Positions 5,560 to 39,833 of a DNA stretch of 43,204 nt are shown here, piece by piece; position 1 is the stretch's first letter, and the number at the start of each line of letters is the position of its first letter. This stretch comes from an uncultured beta proteobacterium (GTDB lineage Bacteria > Pseudomonadota > Gammaproteobacteria > Burkholderiales > Burkholderiaceae_C). Under the pieces are notes generated by a model. The model made no database searches, was not told the DNA's origin, and saw only the letters and a program-made list of their open reading frames with translations. The stretch spans positions 1 through 43,204 of the forward strand of contig CAJAVE010000120.1 of the NCBI GenBank assembly GCA_903945325.1, written 5' to 3'. The position numbers were made by a program, and so were the translations under genes.

Positions 5560-6822
5560 ATGGCAATCGTAGAAGTAAAAGTACCTCAGCTCTCTGAGTC
5601 AGTGGCCGAAGCCACCTTGCTGCAATGGAAGAAGAAGGTCGGCGATCTGGTCCTGGTGGACGAGATCCTGATTGACGTGGAAACCGACAAAGTAGTGCTG
5701 GAAGTGCCAGCACCCAGTGCCGGCGTGCTCGTTGAAATTGTGGCGGCGGACGGCGCAACCGTGGCCGCCGAACAGCTGATCGCCCGCATTGACACCGAAG
5801 GCGCTGCCGGCGCTGTTGCTGCGCCCGCCGCCGCACCGACTGCTGCTGTGGCAGCGGCACCGGTGGCCGCAGTTGCCCAGACCAGCAACTCCAAGGCGGG
5901 TGTGGCCATGCCCGCTGCGGCCAAGCTGCTGGCCGACAACAACCTGACGGTCAATGCCGTGGCTGGCACAGGCAAGGATGGCCGCGTCACTAAGGGTGAT
6001 GTACTGGGTGCCGTCGCCGCCGGTTCTGCTACAAAAACAGTAGCGACTGTCTCAATCCCTACGGGGGCTCCGACCAAGGTATTGCCTCAGGTTGCGGCAC
6101 CGGCTGCTCTGCACCTGGGCGACCGACCCGAGGAGCGCGTGCCCATGAGCCGCCTGCGTGCCCGTGTGGCCGAGCGTCTGTTGCAGTCGCAAAGCACCAA
6201 CGCCATCCTGACCACCTTCAACGAGATCAACATGGCTCCGGTCATGGACATGCGCAAGCGCATGCAGGAGCGTTTCGAGAAGGAACATGGCGTCAAGCTC
6301 GGCTTCATGAGCTTCTTTGTCAAGGCTGCGGTGCATGCCCTGAAGAAGTTCCCGGTGCTGAACGCCTCGGTGGACGGCACCGACATCGTCTACCACGGCT
6401 ATTTCGACGTGGGCATCGCCGTGGGCTCGCCCCGTGGCTTGGTGGTGCCGATTCTGCGCAACGCCGACCAGATGAGCTTTGCCGAGATCGAGAAGAAGAT
6501 TGCCGAGTTTGGCCAAAAGGCCAAGGACGGCAAGCTGGGCATTGAAGACATGACCGGCGGCACCTTCTCCATCTCCAACGGCGGCACCTTCGGCTCCATG
6601 ATGTCCACACCCATCATCAACCCGCCCCAGTCGGCCATCCTGGGCGTGCACGCCACCAAGGACCGCGCCATGGTTGAGAACGGCCAGGTGGTGGTGCGCC
6701 CCATGAACTACTTTGCCATGTCCTACGACCACCGCATCATCGACGGCCGAGAAGCCGTGCTGGGTCTGGTGGCCATGAAGGAAGCGCTGGAAGATCCGGC
6801 TCGCTTGCTGTTTGATATTTGA
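5560..6822 (+). CDS. sucB: 2-oxoglutarate dehydrogenase E2 (dihydrolipoyl succinyltransferase)
   Basis: The E2 core transfers succinyl groups from the lipoyl arm to CoA. The protein has 420 residues. An N-terminal lipoyl domain (1 to about 75) carries the lipoylated lysine K44 in [10 protein letters not shown]. An Ala/Val/Pro-rich flexible linker (about 80-110) follows. The E3/E1-binding domain lies at about 113-150 ([20 protein letters not shown]). The C-terminal catalytic domain ends with SYDHRIIDG, where H391 and D395 are the expected catalytic residues. There is one lipoyl domain, as expected for a SucB rather than a pyruvate-dehydrogenase E2. It lies between sucA and lpdA in the same direction. 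Also called odhB. Confidence 0.97.
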
Positions 6823-6889: not shown

Positions 6890-8317
6890 ATGAGTAAACA
6901 ATTCGACGTGATCGTCATTGGCGGCGGCCCTGGTGGCTATATCGCTGCTATTCGCGCAGCCCAACTGGGCTTTGAAGTCGCCTGTATCGACGAGTGGAAG
7001 AATGACAAGGGTGGCCCGGCTCTTGGCGGCACCTGTACCAATGTAGGCTGCATCCCGTCCAAGGCGCTGCTGCAATCCAGTGAGCACTTTGACCATGCCA
7101 ATAACCACTTCGCCGACCACGGCATTGCAGTGAAGGGCGTGACCATGGATGTGGCCAAAATGGTTGCCCGCAAAGACATGGTGGTCAAGCAGAACAACGA
7201 CGGTATCCAGTACCTGTTGAAGAAGAACAAGATTGCGTTCTTCCACGGTCGCGGTTCGTTTGTCAAAGCGGCTGACGGAGGCTACGTCATCAACGTGGCC
7301 GGCGCTGTTGAAGAATCACTGCTGGGCAAGCAGGTCATCATCGCCACGGGCTCCAACGCACGTGCCTTGCCGGGCACGCCGTTTGACGAGGAGCGCATTT
7401 TGTCTAACGACGGCGCCTTGCGCATTGGCGCGGTTCCCAAGAAACTGGGCCTGATTGGTTCTGGCGTGATCGGTCTGGAAATGGGCTCGGTCTGGCGTCG
7501 TCTGGGTGCCGAAGTCACCATCCTAGAAGGTCTGCCAACCTTCCTGGGCGCAGTGGACGAGCAGGTCGCCAAGGAGGCGCACAAAGCCTTTACCAAGCAG
7601 GGTCTCAAGATCGAACTGGGTGTGTCAGTGGGTGAGATCAAGTCCACCAAGAAGGGCGTCTCCATTGCCTACACTAGCGCCAAGGGTGAGGCACAGGCGC
7701 TTGAAGTGGACAAGCTCATCATCTCGATTGGCCGCGTGCCCAATACGATCGGCCTGAATGCCGAAGCCGTTGGCTTGGCACTGGACGAGCGCGGAGCTAT
7801 TGTTGTGGACGGCGACTGCAAGACCAACCTGCCGGGTGTCTGGGCGGTGGGCGACGTGGTGCGCGGCCCCATGCTGGCACACAAGGCGGAAGAAGAGGGC
7901 GTGGCAGTTGCCGAGCGCATGGCCGGTCAACGCGGTCACGTCAACTTCAACACTATTCCGTGGGTGATTTACACCAGCCCCGAGATTGCCTGGGTCGGTC
8001 GCACCGAGCAGCAGCTCAAGGCCGACGGCGTGGCATACAAGGCAGGCTCATTCCCGTTCCTGGCGAATGGTCGCGCACGTGCATTGGGCGATACCACCGG
8101 TTTCGTCAAGTTCTTGGCGGATGCCACGACCGACGAAATCCTGGGAGTGCACATTGTGGGCCCACAGGCCAGCGAACTGATTTCCGAGGCGGTGGTGGCT
8201 ATGGAGTTCAGGGCGAGTGCCGAGGACATTGCCCGCATCTGCCACGCGCATCCGTCTCTGAGCGAAGCCACCAAGGAAGCGGCTCTGGCTGTGGACAAAC
8301 GTACGCTGAACTTCTGA
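6890..8317 (+). CDS. lpdA: Dihydrolipoyl dehydrogenase (E3)
   Basis: A flavoprotein that reoxidises the dihydrolipoyl arm of E2 and reduces NAD+. It has 475 residues. The FAD-binding GGGPGG is at 11-16. The redox-active disulfide is C49-x4-C54 in [13 protein letters not shown]. The NAD-binding region is [12 protein letters not shown] (about 189-200), and the second FAD contact is [20 protein letters not shown]. The dimer-interface catalytic pair is H454/E459 in HAHPSLSE. It is the third gene of the 2-oxoglutarate dehydrogenase operon. The 67-base gap before it contains the 10-base palindrome GAGCTAGCTC (6856-6865) and a possible long stem GGGAC/GTCCC. Confidence 0.97.
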
Positions 8318-8330
8318 TTGTTTTGGAGTG

Positions 8331-8387
8331 AAAATGGCTTCTAGCCCTCGCAAAGTATGGGCTTGCAGCTATTTAATTGATAGCAAT
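8331..8387 (+). repeat. Dispersed intergenic repeat, copy A (lpdA-zapE gap)
   Basis: The gap between lpdA and zapE is almost filled by an element that recurs at 33154-33213 and, inverted, at 39495-39536. The 42-base core is 8331-8372. Hand alignment with the second copy gives 29 of 42 matches, strongest in CTAGCCC-CG and at the CAGCTAT end. The zapE ribosome binding site GGAG follows directly. I recall similar short repeats from Comamonadaceae genomes; this was not checked. Confidence 0.65.
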
Positions 8388-8401
8388 CTGGAGCTGTTGT
8401 C

Positions 8402-33153: not shown

Positions 33154-33213
33154 GAAAAATTGGGCTCTAGCCCCCGTAAACATTGCGTAACCAGCTATAA
33201 ATATAGGAGCAAA
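33154..33213 (+). repeat. Dispersed repeat, copy B (purA-phosphoribosyltransferase gap)
   Basis: This is the second copy of the element seen at 8331-8387. Core 33157-33198 matches the inverted copy at 39495-39536 at 37 of 42 positions and copy A at 29 of 42 (hand alignment). Shared blocks are CTAGCCC-CG and CAGCTAT. The 3' end of the element contains AGGAG, which serves as the ribosome binding site of the gene starting at 33216 (six bases away). Confidence 0.75.
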
Positions 33214-33215
33214 TC

Positions 33216-37920: not shown

Positions 37921-38587
37921 GAGTGAAGTAATTATTTCTGTTGAACACGTTTGTAAATCGGTAACCGACTCTACCGGCACACTGGAGATTTTGCGTGATA
38001 TCGATTTTGCGCTTAATGCCCGAGAGACTGCGGCCATTGTCGGTGCCTCCGGTTCCGGCAAAAGCACACTGTTGTCCATCATTGCAGGCTTGGATACCCC
38101 CACAACCGGTACGGTTCGTCTGGCCGGAGCCGATCTGTTTGAACTGGACGAGGACGATAGGGCCGGTCTTCGGGCCAGTAAGGTGGGCTTTGTGTTCCAG
38201 AGCTTCCAGTTGCTGGGCAACCTCACTGCCCTGGAAAACGTGATGCTGCCGCTGGAGCTTGCCGGGCGTAAAGATGCACGCAAAGCCGCCACCGAGATGC
38301 TGGCCCGTGTGGGCTTGTCGCAGCGGCTCACCTCTTACCCTAAAGTGCTCAGCGGTGGCGAACAGCAACGAGTGGCACTGGCGCGGGCATTTGTGGTGCA
38401 CCCCGCCGTTTTATTGGCCGATGAGCCCACGGGCAGCCTGGACTTTGCAACCGGCGAGACCATCATGGAGCTGATGTTTGACCTGAACCGCGAGCAGGGC
38501 ACCACGTTGGTTCTGGTCACCCACGATCGCTCGATTGCCGCACGTTGTGATAGGCGCATCACGATCGAGGCGGGCAAGCTGGTCTGA
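37919..38587 (+). CDS. ybbA: ABC transporter ATP-binding protein (YbbA-like)
   Basis: The ATPase subunit of a MacB/LolD-type transporter. It has 222 residues, the usual length. Walker A is GASGSGKST (42-50), Q-loop FVFQSFQLL, signature LSGGEQQRVALARA (about 138-151), Walker B VLLADEPTGSLD (about 157-168) and H-loop VTHD. The start is chosen at 37919 (GAGAG upstream); a longer frame from 37676 is antisense to tesA. In E. coli the permease ybbP follows, but here the next gene is rlmB, so the ATPase has no visible membrane partner. Confidence 0.93.
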   Translation: MSEVIISVEHVCKSVTDSTGTLEILRDIDFALNARETAAIVGASGSGKSTLLSIIAGLDTPTTGTVRLAGADLFELDEDDRAGLRASKVGFVFQSFQLLGNLTALENVMLPLELAGRKDARKAATEMLARVGLSQRLTSYPKVLSGGEQQRVALARAFVVHPAVLLADEPTGSLDFATGETIMELMFDLNREQGTTLVLVTHDRSIAARCDRRITIEAGKLV

Positions 38588-38682
38588 GGAGCCTGGGCGC
38601 CAGAGCGTTCTGCGCAGGTCAAGGAGGAGCCCACGCAGTGGGCGGGGGACACGTAGCAGAACGCTCTGCCGCCCAGGCTCCT
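38587..38682. repeat. Large inverted repeat between ybbA and rlmB
   Basis: Arms of 27 bases (38587-38613 and 38656-38682) pair with a single mismatch. The 42-base interior holds a second perfect hairpin, GCCCAC-GCA-GTGGGC (38629-38643), and the string GGTCAAGGAGGAG. The arm begins at the last base of the ybbA stop codon and ends 18 bases before rlmB. It could act as a terminator for both directions or be a small palindromic mobile element. I recall GGTCAAGGAGGAG-type cores from Comamonadaceae intergenic regions. Confidence 0.75.
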
Positions 38683-38700: not shown

Positions 38701-39471
38701 ATGTCATCACCTAAAGTTCTTTTCGGCTTCCACGCCCTGGGCGTGCGTCTCAAGACGGCCCCCCAATCCATTATTGAAATCTATTTTGAGCCGACCCGGC
38801 GCGATGCCCGCATGCGCCAGTTTCTGGACCGGGCCACAGAGTCTGGCGTCAAGCTGATCGAGTCCGACGGCGCGCGCCTGTCCAAAATGTGTGGTGGTCA
38901 TGGTCACCAGGGTGTTGCGGCGCGCGTGCAGGCCATCGCCCAGGTGCATTCGCTGGACGAGCTGCTGGAAGACCTGGAAGCCGCCAATGCGGATTTGCCG
39001 CTGGAGCAACGCAACCAACCCCTGATTCTGGTGCTCGACGGCGTGACCGACCCTCACAACCTGGGCGCCTGCCTGCGGGTGGCAGATGGTGCCGGCGTGC
39101 ACGCCGTGATTGCACCCAAGGACCACGCGGCCGGGATCAATGCCACCGTGGCCAAAGTCGCCAGCGGCGCGGCAGAAACGGTGCCCTATTTCATGGTGAC
39201 CAATCTGGCCCGAACGCTCAACGAACTCAAGGAGCGCAACATCTGGATCATTGGTACCAGCGACACGGCTCCCGTCACGCTGTACCAGGCCGACCTCAAA
39301 GGCCCGGTGGCTCTGGTGCTGGGCGCAGAAGGCGCAGGCATGCGCCAACTCACCGCCAAGACGTGTGATGCACTGGTCAGCATTCCCATGCGCGGGGCGG
39401 TCGAGAGCCTGAATGTGTCCGTGGCCAGCGGCGTGTGTCTGTACGAAGCCCTGCGCCAACGTACCGTTTAA
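38701..39471 (+). CDS. rlmB: 23S rRNA 2'-O-ribose methyltransferase RlmB
   Basis: A SpoU-family (SPOUT) enzyme that methylates the ribose of G2251 in the peptidyl-transferase P loop. It has 256 residues from the ATG at 38701. An N-terminal substrate-binding domain (1 to about 90, including KVLFGFHALGVRLK) is followed by the SPOUT knot domain with motif 1 LDGVTDPHNLGACLRVADG (about 113-131), motif 2 LVLGAEGAGMRQL (about 206-218) and motif 3 IPMRGAVESLNVSVASGV (about 228-245). No ribosome binding site is visible; GATAAT lies only seven bases upstream, so the mRNA might be leaderless. Confidence 0.95.
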   Translation: MSSPKVLFGFHALGVRLKTAPQSIIEIYFEPTRRDARMRQFLDRATESGVKLIESDGARLSKMCGGHGHQGVAARVQAIAQVHSLDELLEDLEAANADLPLEQRNQPLILVLDGVTDPHNLGACLRVADGAGVHAVIAPKDHAAGINATVAKVASGAAETVPYFMVTNLARTLNELKERNIWIIGTSDTAPVTLYQADLKGPVALVLGAEGAGMRQLTAKTCDALVSIPMRGAVESLNVSVASGVCLYEALRQRTV

Positions 39472-39485
39472 GAAGGGATTTAACT

Positions 39486-39833
39486 ATGAAAAAGATAGCT
39501 GCTTACGCAATATTGACGGGGGCTACAGCCCTATTTCTTGTAGGTTGTACGCAAGAACAACAAAACAAGATCAGCCGCGACATCCAGAACTGGACCGGCA
39601 CCAACGGAGTGCTGGAGATCTATGCCGGTGACAAACTGGTACGCCGCTTCATCAAGGTTGACAAGCTCAGTACCGCCATGGGAACCGACGACAACAAGCC
39701 GCGCCCTTACCGCTATGGCTATGGCGTACTGGACGAGAACTTCAATTTTGTGGTCGACCCGGGCGAGAAGAAGGTCTATTTCGAAATCAGCGACTACGCC
39801 TCGAACTACCTGTTCTTCGAGAGCCCACGCTGA
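39486..39833 (+). CDS. Small lipoprotein with a repeat-derived signal peptide
   Basis: A 115-residue predicted lipoprotein of unknown function. The ATG at 39486 has AAGGG eight bases upstream. The lipobox is FLVGC with C21 lipidated. The mature part begins TQEQQNKISRDIQNW and ends YASNYLFFESPR; it is soluble, with no known motif, and looks well conserved in style (many aromatic and charged residues). The hydrophobic core of the signal peptide (residues 4-17) is encoded entirely by an inverted copy of the dispersed repeat found at 33157-33198. It follows rlmB by 14 bases, so it is probably co-transcribed. Confidence 0.8.
   Translation: MKKIAAYAILTGATALFLVGCTQEQQNKISRDIQNWTGTNGVLEIYAGDKLVRRFIKVDKLSTAMGTDDNKPRPYRYGYGVLDENFNFVVDPGEKKVYFEISDYASNYLFFESPR
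39495..39536 (-). repeat. Dispersed repeat, copy C, inverted and inside a gene
   Basis: On the minus strand this 42-base stretch matches copy B (33157-33198) at 37 of 42 positions by hand alignment, without gaps, including an 8-base block TAGCCCCC plus GT, the block ATTGCGTAA and the CAGCTAT end. It lies wholly within the first 17 codons of the lipoprotein gene. Confidence 0.8.

Follow-up and report, generated by a model that had tools for sequence, protein, structure and literature searches.

The Rickettsia palindromic elements are small dispersed repeats of 105–146 bp with long stem-loops, described as lying both between genes and, in frame, within the genes of conserved proteins (PMC2229807). 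The repeat that we report here resembles them in having many dispersed copies, some of them in frame within conserved genes (e.g., UvrA, with 17 extra residues). It is unlike those longer elements, with their long stem-loop and terminal inverted repeats, in being 57–59 nt long and forming short hairpins; moreover, its copy in a LolD-like gene overlies local sequence and leaves the length unchanged. Signal-peptide use, which is predicted here, forms no part of the Rickettsia account in the passages of PMC2229807 that deal with the elements.

The enterobacterial elements RU-1/ERIC and RU-2/YPAL, of 127–168 bp, provide reading frames that are fused to genes (Delihas 2007, PMC2759123). In one Yersinia protein, RU-2 constitutes residues 1–30 of a predicted 41-residue signal peptide, similar proteins of other genera having signal sequences unrelated to RU-2; a second locus is named, with a weaker prediction (PMC2759123). 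Whereas one case is detailed in that account, the present repeat is predicted to form the n- and h-region of some 14 protein families, in common to many species.

Among Comamonadaceae, pairs of motifs have been listed as potential novel motifs, mostly intergenic and sometimes in genes (PMC5217627). They include GCTTAT(N)5AAGCG in Acidovorax ebreus and ATAGCT(N)22CAAAAG in Polaromonas naphthalenivorans, and R. ferrireducens T118 had the most motif pairs (140) (PMC5217627). We found the A. ebreus pattern inside copies of our looser pattern (ATAGCTGCTAGCGCTTATGGGACAAGCGCTA in genome G211); the Polaromonas pattern was not matched to the repeat consensus. The description of the motif pairs in PMC5217627, unlike the present data, makes no link to signal peptides where the pairs are listed. 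The BRE element (~90 bp and 69% GC in Bordetella, sometimes tandem) is dispersed in Betaproteobacteria including Rhodoferax and Polaromonas, with some copies in coding sequence and 4 copies in R. ferrireducens (PMC3110155). It differs from our repeat in length and copy number, and we set the two apart by description, not by sequence. REP sequences are defined by a GTAG or CGTC tetranucleotide at one end of a 20–40 nt palindrome (PMC3733652). Unlike them, our consensus ends, as judged by eye, in TTTGCTAT and CCTATTT. Another criterion for REP with the GTAG or CGTC tag is a partner RAYT transposase in the genome.

Insertions and deletions of whole signal peptides have been reported among orthologues in Enterobacterales, and a test with ISEScan of transposable elements as the cause detected none near the N-termini (PMC5952966). 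The cases below are similar, in that the whole signal peptide differs among orthologues, and dissimilar, in that a repeat element lies at the N-terminus. Our search of the open-access literature turned up no previous report in which this repeat serves as a signal peptide. Small repeats that code for protein are thus already known; what is new is recurrence over many protein families and many species, with a signature of selection. The origin of new signal peptides is an open question, and one short repeat appears to lie behind the export signals of about 14 protein families.

A Repeat Copy at the Start of a Predicted Lipoprotein Gene

The features of the window, i.e., the whole 43,204-nt stretch of DNA analysed (contig C120 of an own genome of 4.69 Mb in 394 contigs), are collected in Table 1. 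An AAGGG at 39473–39477, as read from the sequence, precedes the ATG of the lipoprotein gene by 8 nt. The predicted N-terminus, MKK-IAAYAILTGATALF-LVGC, has the positive n-region, the hydrophobic core and the lipobox before Cys of an SPase II type signal peptide. The lipoprotein gave no Pfam or NCBIfam family above the cut-off.

Table 1. Coordinates of the repeat copies in the window and of the genes discussed with them
Feature	Position	Strand	Evidence
Repeat copy, taken as signal-peptide DNA including the start codon	39479..39537	+	matrix 76.4 bits; consensus; own-genome DNA search
Predicted lipoprotein CDS, 115 aa, stop included (MKKIAAYAILTGATALFLVGC, then TQEQQNKI..)	39486..39833	+	ORF and translation
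Predicted 20-residue signal peptide and lipobox Cys codon (39546-39548)	39486..39548	+	sequence; orthologue comparison
Intergenic repeat copy between purA-like gene (ends 33140) and phosphoribosyltransferase-like gene (starts 33216)	33156..33214	-	matrix 78.3
Third copy, intergenic, between the 6890-8317 and 8402-9499 genes	8330..8388	-	matrix 38.4
Probable decayed in-frame copy in apparent linker of 2-oxoacid dehydrogenase E2-like gene	6024..6082	+	matrix 1.2 (chance maximum -15.7)
rlmB/SpoU-like methyltransferase gene 5' of the lipoprotein gene, start taken at the MSSPKV Met	38701..39471	+	ORFs

A first-pass annotation had matched 39495–39536 (+) to an intergenic element at 33157–33198 (–) in 37 of 42 ungapped positions, and had proposed a 42-nt dispersed repeat that encodes the core of the signal peptide. 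Realignment gave the same count. A pattern built on this pair matched the window at these 2 places and nowhere else, and had 0 matches in 100 dinucleotide shuffles. Read from the ATG at 39486, the 42 bases do code for residues 4–17 (IAAYAILTGATALF) of MKKIAAYAILTGATALFLVGC, followed by LVGC, but the extent first assigned was too short, as the family consensus runs from about 39479 to 39537. The start codon at 39486 itself therefore lies inside the repeat. Beyond what had been noticed at first, then, the repeat also gives the start codon here and builds the predicted signal peptides of many other genes. Two more places in the window had likewise gone unlisted, the copy at 8330..8388 and the probable decayed one at 6024..6082.

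The Repeat Family and Its Spread

The same annotation had suggested a DNA search of the genome and had allowed that the match might be due to chance, with no further copies. The search returned 286 places (129 + 157) within 3 mismatches of ATAGCNGCTTGCGCANNNNNNACGGGGGCTA, as against 0 for a reversed-pattern control. From 63 own-genome copies we derived a consensus of 57–59 nt, approximately TTGCTAT.aatTTgATAGCTGCTTGCGCAaTaTc.ACGGGGGCTAgAGcCCtATTT, and a 59-column matrix from which the lipoprotein copy was left out. This copy nonetheless scores 76.4 bits, the median of the 63 copies being 72.4 and the chance maximum –15.7 bits (20 simulated windows, order-1 Markov, one strand).

The nearest named orthologue of the lipoprotein belongs to a Rhodoferax MAG (97%), and the other 79 named loci are mostly from Rhodoferax, other Comamonadaceae and unplaced Betaproteobacteria; by inference from these matches, the genus of the repeat-bearing genomes would be Rhodoferax. 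The core pattern has at least one copy in 53 of 103 genus genomes and none in 50. A looser pattern matches at least once in 56 of 150 family genomes (counts of 1–2 per genome being about the control level of 0–3) and reaches 182 places in one genome of another genus, and this pattern reveals related repeats with other core sequences in many other genera of the family. Repeat DNA is also present in 4 plasmid records (Rhodoferax, Diaphorobacter, Polaromonas and a Comamonadaceae bacterium). Querying plasmids with the encoded peptide returned only 2 weak matches (Priestia, Streptomyces), of no relevance, and phage records yielded no repeat.

Some intergenic positions carry a copy in one species and are empty at the orthologous place in others (e.g., L126 vs L094 and L100). 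Of the two marks of a MITE, terminal inverted repeats and a target-site duplication, the first was not seen by eye in the consensus, and for the second the junctions are too diverged from copy-free relatives for a duplication to show. The consensus folds into short hairpins only (z = –2.08 as DNA, –1.84 as RNA), and the stem pairs in 85 copies had neither covariation nor an excess over the column make-up. Secondary structure as the main function was rejected on these grounds, the hairpins being short and the stem pairs about as frequent as the column make-up predicts. One variant copy (L026, own genome C95), which follows the SCO1 signal-peptide copy downstream and lies on the opposite strand, has an extended hairpin (GCGCAAGGCGCTACAAT..ATTGTAGCGCCTTGCGCA) and is absent at the same place in relatives.

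Lipoprotein Orthologues and the Direction of Change

We examined 108 loci that have a lipoprotein orthologue, or 91 after removal of 17 duplicates, and the rlmB-like gene lies upstream at 96 of the 108. The signal peptide is repeat-like (matrix > 0) in 50 of the 91, scores below –45 bits in 35 and falls between in 6. Stops are absent from all 50 repeat-like signal peptides, and 46 of them fit a loose lipobox. The 35 low scorers have the same mature lipoprotein (CTQEQQN..) behind signal peptides of 18–30 residues that score down to –86 bits; they include Noviherbaspirillum L133, Herbaspirillum L137 and L057 of another family. Distant orthologues thus carry different nucleotides at this place, and not the shared ones that the first-pass annotation had counted as evidence against itself; its suggested comparison of orthologues did bring out signal peptides without the repeat. 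Of its two readings, one had a non-coding repeat being recruited as an export signal, and the other had the repeat inserting into a pre-existing signal peptide that went on functioning. We favour the latter: since 35 of 91 orthologues combine the same mature part with an unrelated signal peptide, the repeat most likely took over from an older lipoprotein signal peptide, not the reverse.

In 41 of the 50 repeat-like orthologues the repeat stands at offset –70 from the Cys codon, or at –67 in the window species and two others; the remainder are at –49 or –79/–82 and look as if they had been separately captured or rearranged. The ATG is inside the repeat in the window species and just 5' of it in relatives with 24-residue signal peptides. 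A tree of rlmB plus the mature lipoprotein (77 rows, leaving out 12 rows without rlmB and two long rows, and not counting five ambiguous rows) has at least 8 state changes, 6 of them forced by supported branches, among which gains and losses are not separable.

At a few loci (L110, L124, L126 and L156, and also L155 and L169) the repeat is truncated at its 3' side and lies 21 nt nearer to the Cys codon; at the first four of these loci, the residues that precede Cys miss even the loose lipobox (e.g., GAGC, SVSC).

Other Predicted Signal Peptides Made of the Repeat

Read in one frame, the repeat gives approximately F-A-I-K-x-I-A-A-C-A-I-L-T-G-A-T-A-L-F. With its brief run of positive charge, its hydrophobic core and its small residues, this peptide comes near to being an n- and h-region as it stands. 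In the own genome, this frame is found at the N-terminus of a SCO1/SenC lipoprotein (MMKKRFAIKTIAICALFSGATALFTAC), of GspD (MQIPPFVRQRNAIILIAGCAILTGATGLFSINSWAQ) and of a polysaccharide deacetylase (MDNRQSFLFAIFTIAACAISTGSGAANA). A search with the encoded peptide of 16 other repeat-rich genomes led to 30 loci, 17 of which were judged signal peptides, as were 20 of 40 further stretches from those genomes (2 of the 20 without a matrix copy); signal and non-signal were told apart by eye, from start codons and coding scores. These added DUF1775, SLT transglycosylase, TctC, cupredoxin, M16 peptidase, SIMPL, LivK-type binding protein and DUF3047 (family names from Pfam), as well as one protein without a Pfam family and another that we take to be chalcone-isomerase-like. 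For SIMPL and the protein without a Pfam family, a GTG or TTG start is needed. Three stretches that had been tagged by script (L293, L311 and L326) were judged non-genes, and two of the three have Arg at codon 15. Altogether, the repeat is the predicted signal peptide in about 14 protein families of the genus, in one common frame, and some of the captures appear common to many species.

No signal peptide was accepted among 30 loci chosen for closeness to the core pattern (L061–L090), nor among 20 further own-genome stretches, so that signal-peptide use concerns a small share of copies. Such use may reflect tolerance rather than preference.

In the lipoprotein, SCO1 and GspD, the repeat signal peptide follows the repeat load of the genome. 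Comparing genomes with at least 20 copies to those with fewer, it is present in 14/14 vs 0/13 for the lipoprotein, 22/22 vs 1/8 for SCO1 and 20/21 vs 1/9 for GspD, all raw counts in which kinship is ignored. The lipoprotein set comprises 27 of the 28 loci L031–L058 (L057, lacking a copy count, was left out), and the SCO1 and GspD sets are the best 30 loci of 59 and 52 matching genomes, respectively, out of 61.

Apparent Selection on the Encoded Peptide

The family consensus places AGA (Arg) at codon 15 of this frame, halfway along what would be the core. This Arg occurs in 0 of 41 lipoprotein copies (a set that pools related copies, kinship being ignored) and in 0 of 14 signal copies taken one per family, compared with 28 of 61 non-signal copies collected by DNA similarity and 24 of 67 collected by the same peptide query as the 14 (a query that itself has Thr at codon 15). 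A charge or a stop in codons 9–17 was seen in 2/41 and 0/14 signal copies and in 44/61 and 47/67 non-signal copies. Likewise, the mean hydropathy of codons 6–17 was 1.72 and 1.64 in the signal copies, and 0.65 and 0.90 in the non-signal ones.

Of the 81 non-signal copies in the own genome, 64 likewise have the frame open, so that an open frame alone is no evidence. The absence of charge from the core of the signal copies, on the other hand, supports their use as an export signal: an uncharged core would be demanded of a working signal peptide and is not expected of a silent relic. We infer that the repeat peptide directs export.

Proposed Capture of the Repeat and Alternative Explanations

We consider it probable (roughly 0.87) that the signal peptide of the window lipoprotein is an old, still translated copy of the 57–59 nt dispersed repeat, which was captured in frame and whose core has been kept uncharged by selection. 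Where a gene encoding an exported protein came to have a copy in this frame at its 5' end, the existing signal peptide would have been displaced; the lipobox or the cleavage site would come from the host gene, and the start from an ATG that flanks the repeat or lies within it. Selection would afterwards exclude charged residues from the core. Besides the window lipoprotein, some 13 further protein families of the genus would have undergone such capture.

If so, the repeat points to a concrete route by which bacteria obtain new signal peptides. As species with and without the repeat are available, the origin of signal peptides from non-coding DNA becomes directly testable. The repeat also offers natural evidence on the permissiveness of signal-peptide sequence and, for annotators, a warning that a real gene can begin with repeat DNA.

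The codons of these signal peptides stay AT-rich. Third-codon GC is 0.35 in the repeat signal peptide vs 0.77 in the mature part (0.63 and 0.70 in orthologues without the repeat), and at the four-fold sites of repeat signal peptides the third base is that of the family consensus in 189 of 229 cases. With rising divergence, four-fold identity in SCO1 was 0.80/0.70/0.66/0.76 for the signal peptide and 0.79/0.59/0.49/0.34 for the mature part, the groups being set by genome copy number, as grouping by score favours similar rows. In GspD both fall (signal 0.91/0.71/0.67/0.62; mature 0.83/0.62/0.64/0.54), and the lipoprotein, in the load-defined set, is mixed (0.72/0.71/0.59 vs 0.86/0.60/0.60). Under load-defined groups, then, a plateau holds for SCO1 and not clearly for GspD or the lipoprotein. 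In signal peptides without the repeat, four-fold identity falls along with the gene.

Gene conversion between signal-peptide and genomic copies is possible. That recurrent non-allelic conversion keeps the signal peptides repeat-like, with decay once the family is lost (concerted evolution), is an idea that we hold as tentative and on balance doubtful. The SCO1 plateau is in its favour, and repeat signal peptides are nearly confined to repeat-rich genomes, although shared ancestry is contained in those counts and GspD and the lipoprotein have no clear plateau. At a Gly codon where the repeat has two subtypes (GGGGGCTA or GGGCGCTA), the lipoprotein signal peptide agrees with the genomic majority in 12 of 14 genomes, but 4 of these genomes offer one or two places to judge by, and the change of subtype, being synonymous, can arise with no conversion. 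Concerted evolution found no support in the diagnostic variant CCATAAGCG of the signal peptide of genome G025: this genome has it at 2 places, counting the signal peptide itself, and shows no enrichment.

An extension of this idea, which we regard as speculative, is that the repeat acts as a standing genomic reservoir of signal peptides, installing export signals on unrelated genes and re-seeding them by gene conversion while copies abound. If true, unrelated proteins of a genome would have signal peptides that evolve jointly with the repeat and drift apart once it is lost.

It is unlikely that a role at the DNA or RNA level (protein binding, translation start, message stability) retains the repeat and that export is a by-product. 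The match of four-fold third bases to the family consensus would suit such a role, as would the SCO1 signal peptide holding level against a falling mature part when non-repeat signal peptides fall with the gene. However, GspD falls with its gene, the lipoprotein is mixed and the stems lack covariation; furthermore, low-GC codons are common at gene starts in general.

The direction could also be the reverse, the repeat family having been born from signal-peptide coding DNA that spread. The open frame of most other own-genome copies would agree with this, and the non-repeat SCO1 signal peptides L249 and L253 resemble the encoded peptide, aligning without gaps with the repeat ones at the protein level. 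Yet nearly half of the non-signal copies found by DNA similarity have Arg in the core, the lipoprotein orthologues with unrelated signal peptides include other families, and the related repeats in many other genera differ in their core sequences; we deem this origin very improbable. Finally, although low complexity and an abundance of Ala, Leu and Ile codons are usual in signal peptides, so that AT-rich hydrophobic codons might resemble intergenic sequence by accident, such chance or convergence is refuted by the genome copies with their empty control and by the score obtained with the copy itself left out, far above both the chance maximum and the 35 unrelated orthologue signal peptides.

Copies Inside Other Proteins and Further Features of the Window

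In-frame copies were also noted in conserved cytoplasmic proteins of the own genome, namely LolD-like (L061, C22), FolM-like (L003, C245) and UvrA (L020, C131) proteins. Among 25 candidate internal frames (the first copies read), 13 use the other strand, in the frame ..LAPV..AQAAI... With respect to solved relatives, UvrA has its extra residues at the repeat (another gap, of 22 residues, lies elsewhere in the alignment), no gap falls on the repeat in the LolD-like protein or within it in the FolM-like reductase, where a gap of 2 residues follows directly, and the TruB and TatD/YjjV-like proteins exceed their relatives by 4 residues. Simple insertion as the sole mode was rejected, as it fits UvrA but not the gap-free LolD-like copy or the FolM-like one, gap-free within the repeat. 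The gap-free internal copies look like replacement rather than insertion.

As for the other genes in Table 1, those flanking the 33156..33214 copy are presumed from their translations to be purA-like and phosphoribosyltransferase-like, and those flanking the 8330..8388 copy we take to be dihydrolipoamide dehydrogenase-like and an AFG1/ZapE-like ATPase, in that order. The probable decayed copy presumably lies in the gene for a 2-oxoacid dehydrogenase E2 subunit, and 38701..39471 presumably encodes an rlmB/SpoU-like methyltransferase.

Rfam, run on the whole window at the gathering threshold, had nothing at the repeat and a single match elsewhere, the sucA RNA motif (RF01070) at 2528–2621 (78.3 bits). 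An inverted repeat with 27-nt arms, 96% complementary and 42 nt apart (38587–38613 / 38656–38682), is placed between an ABC-transporter gene and the rlmB-like gene.
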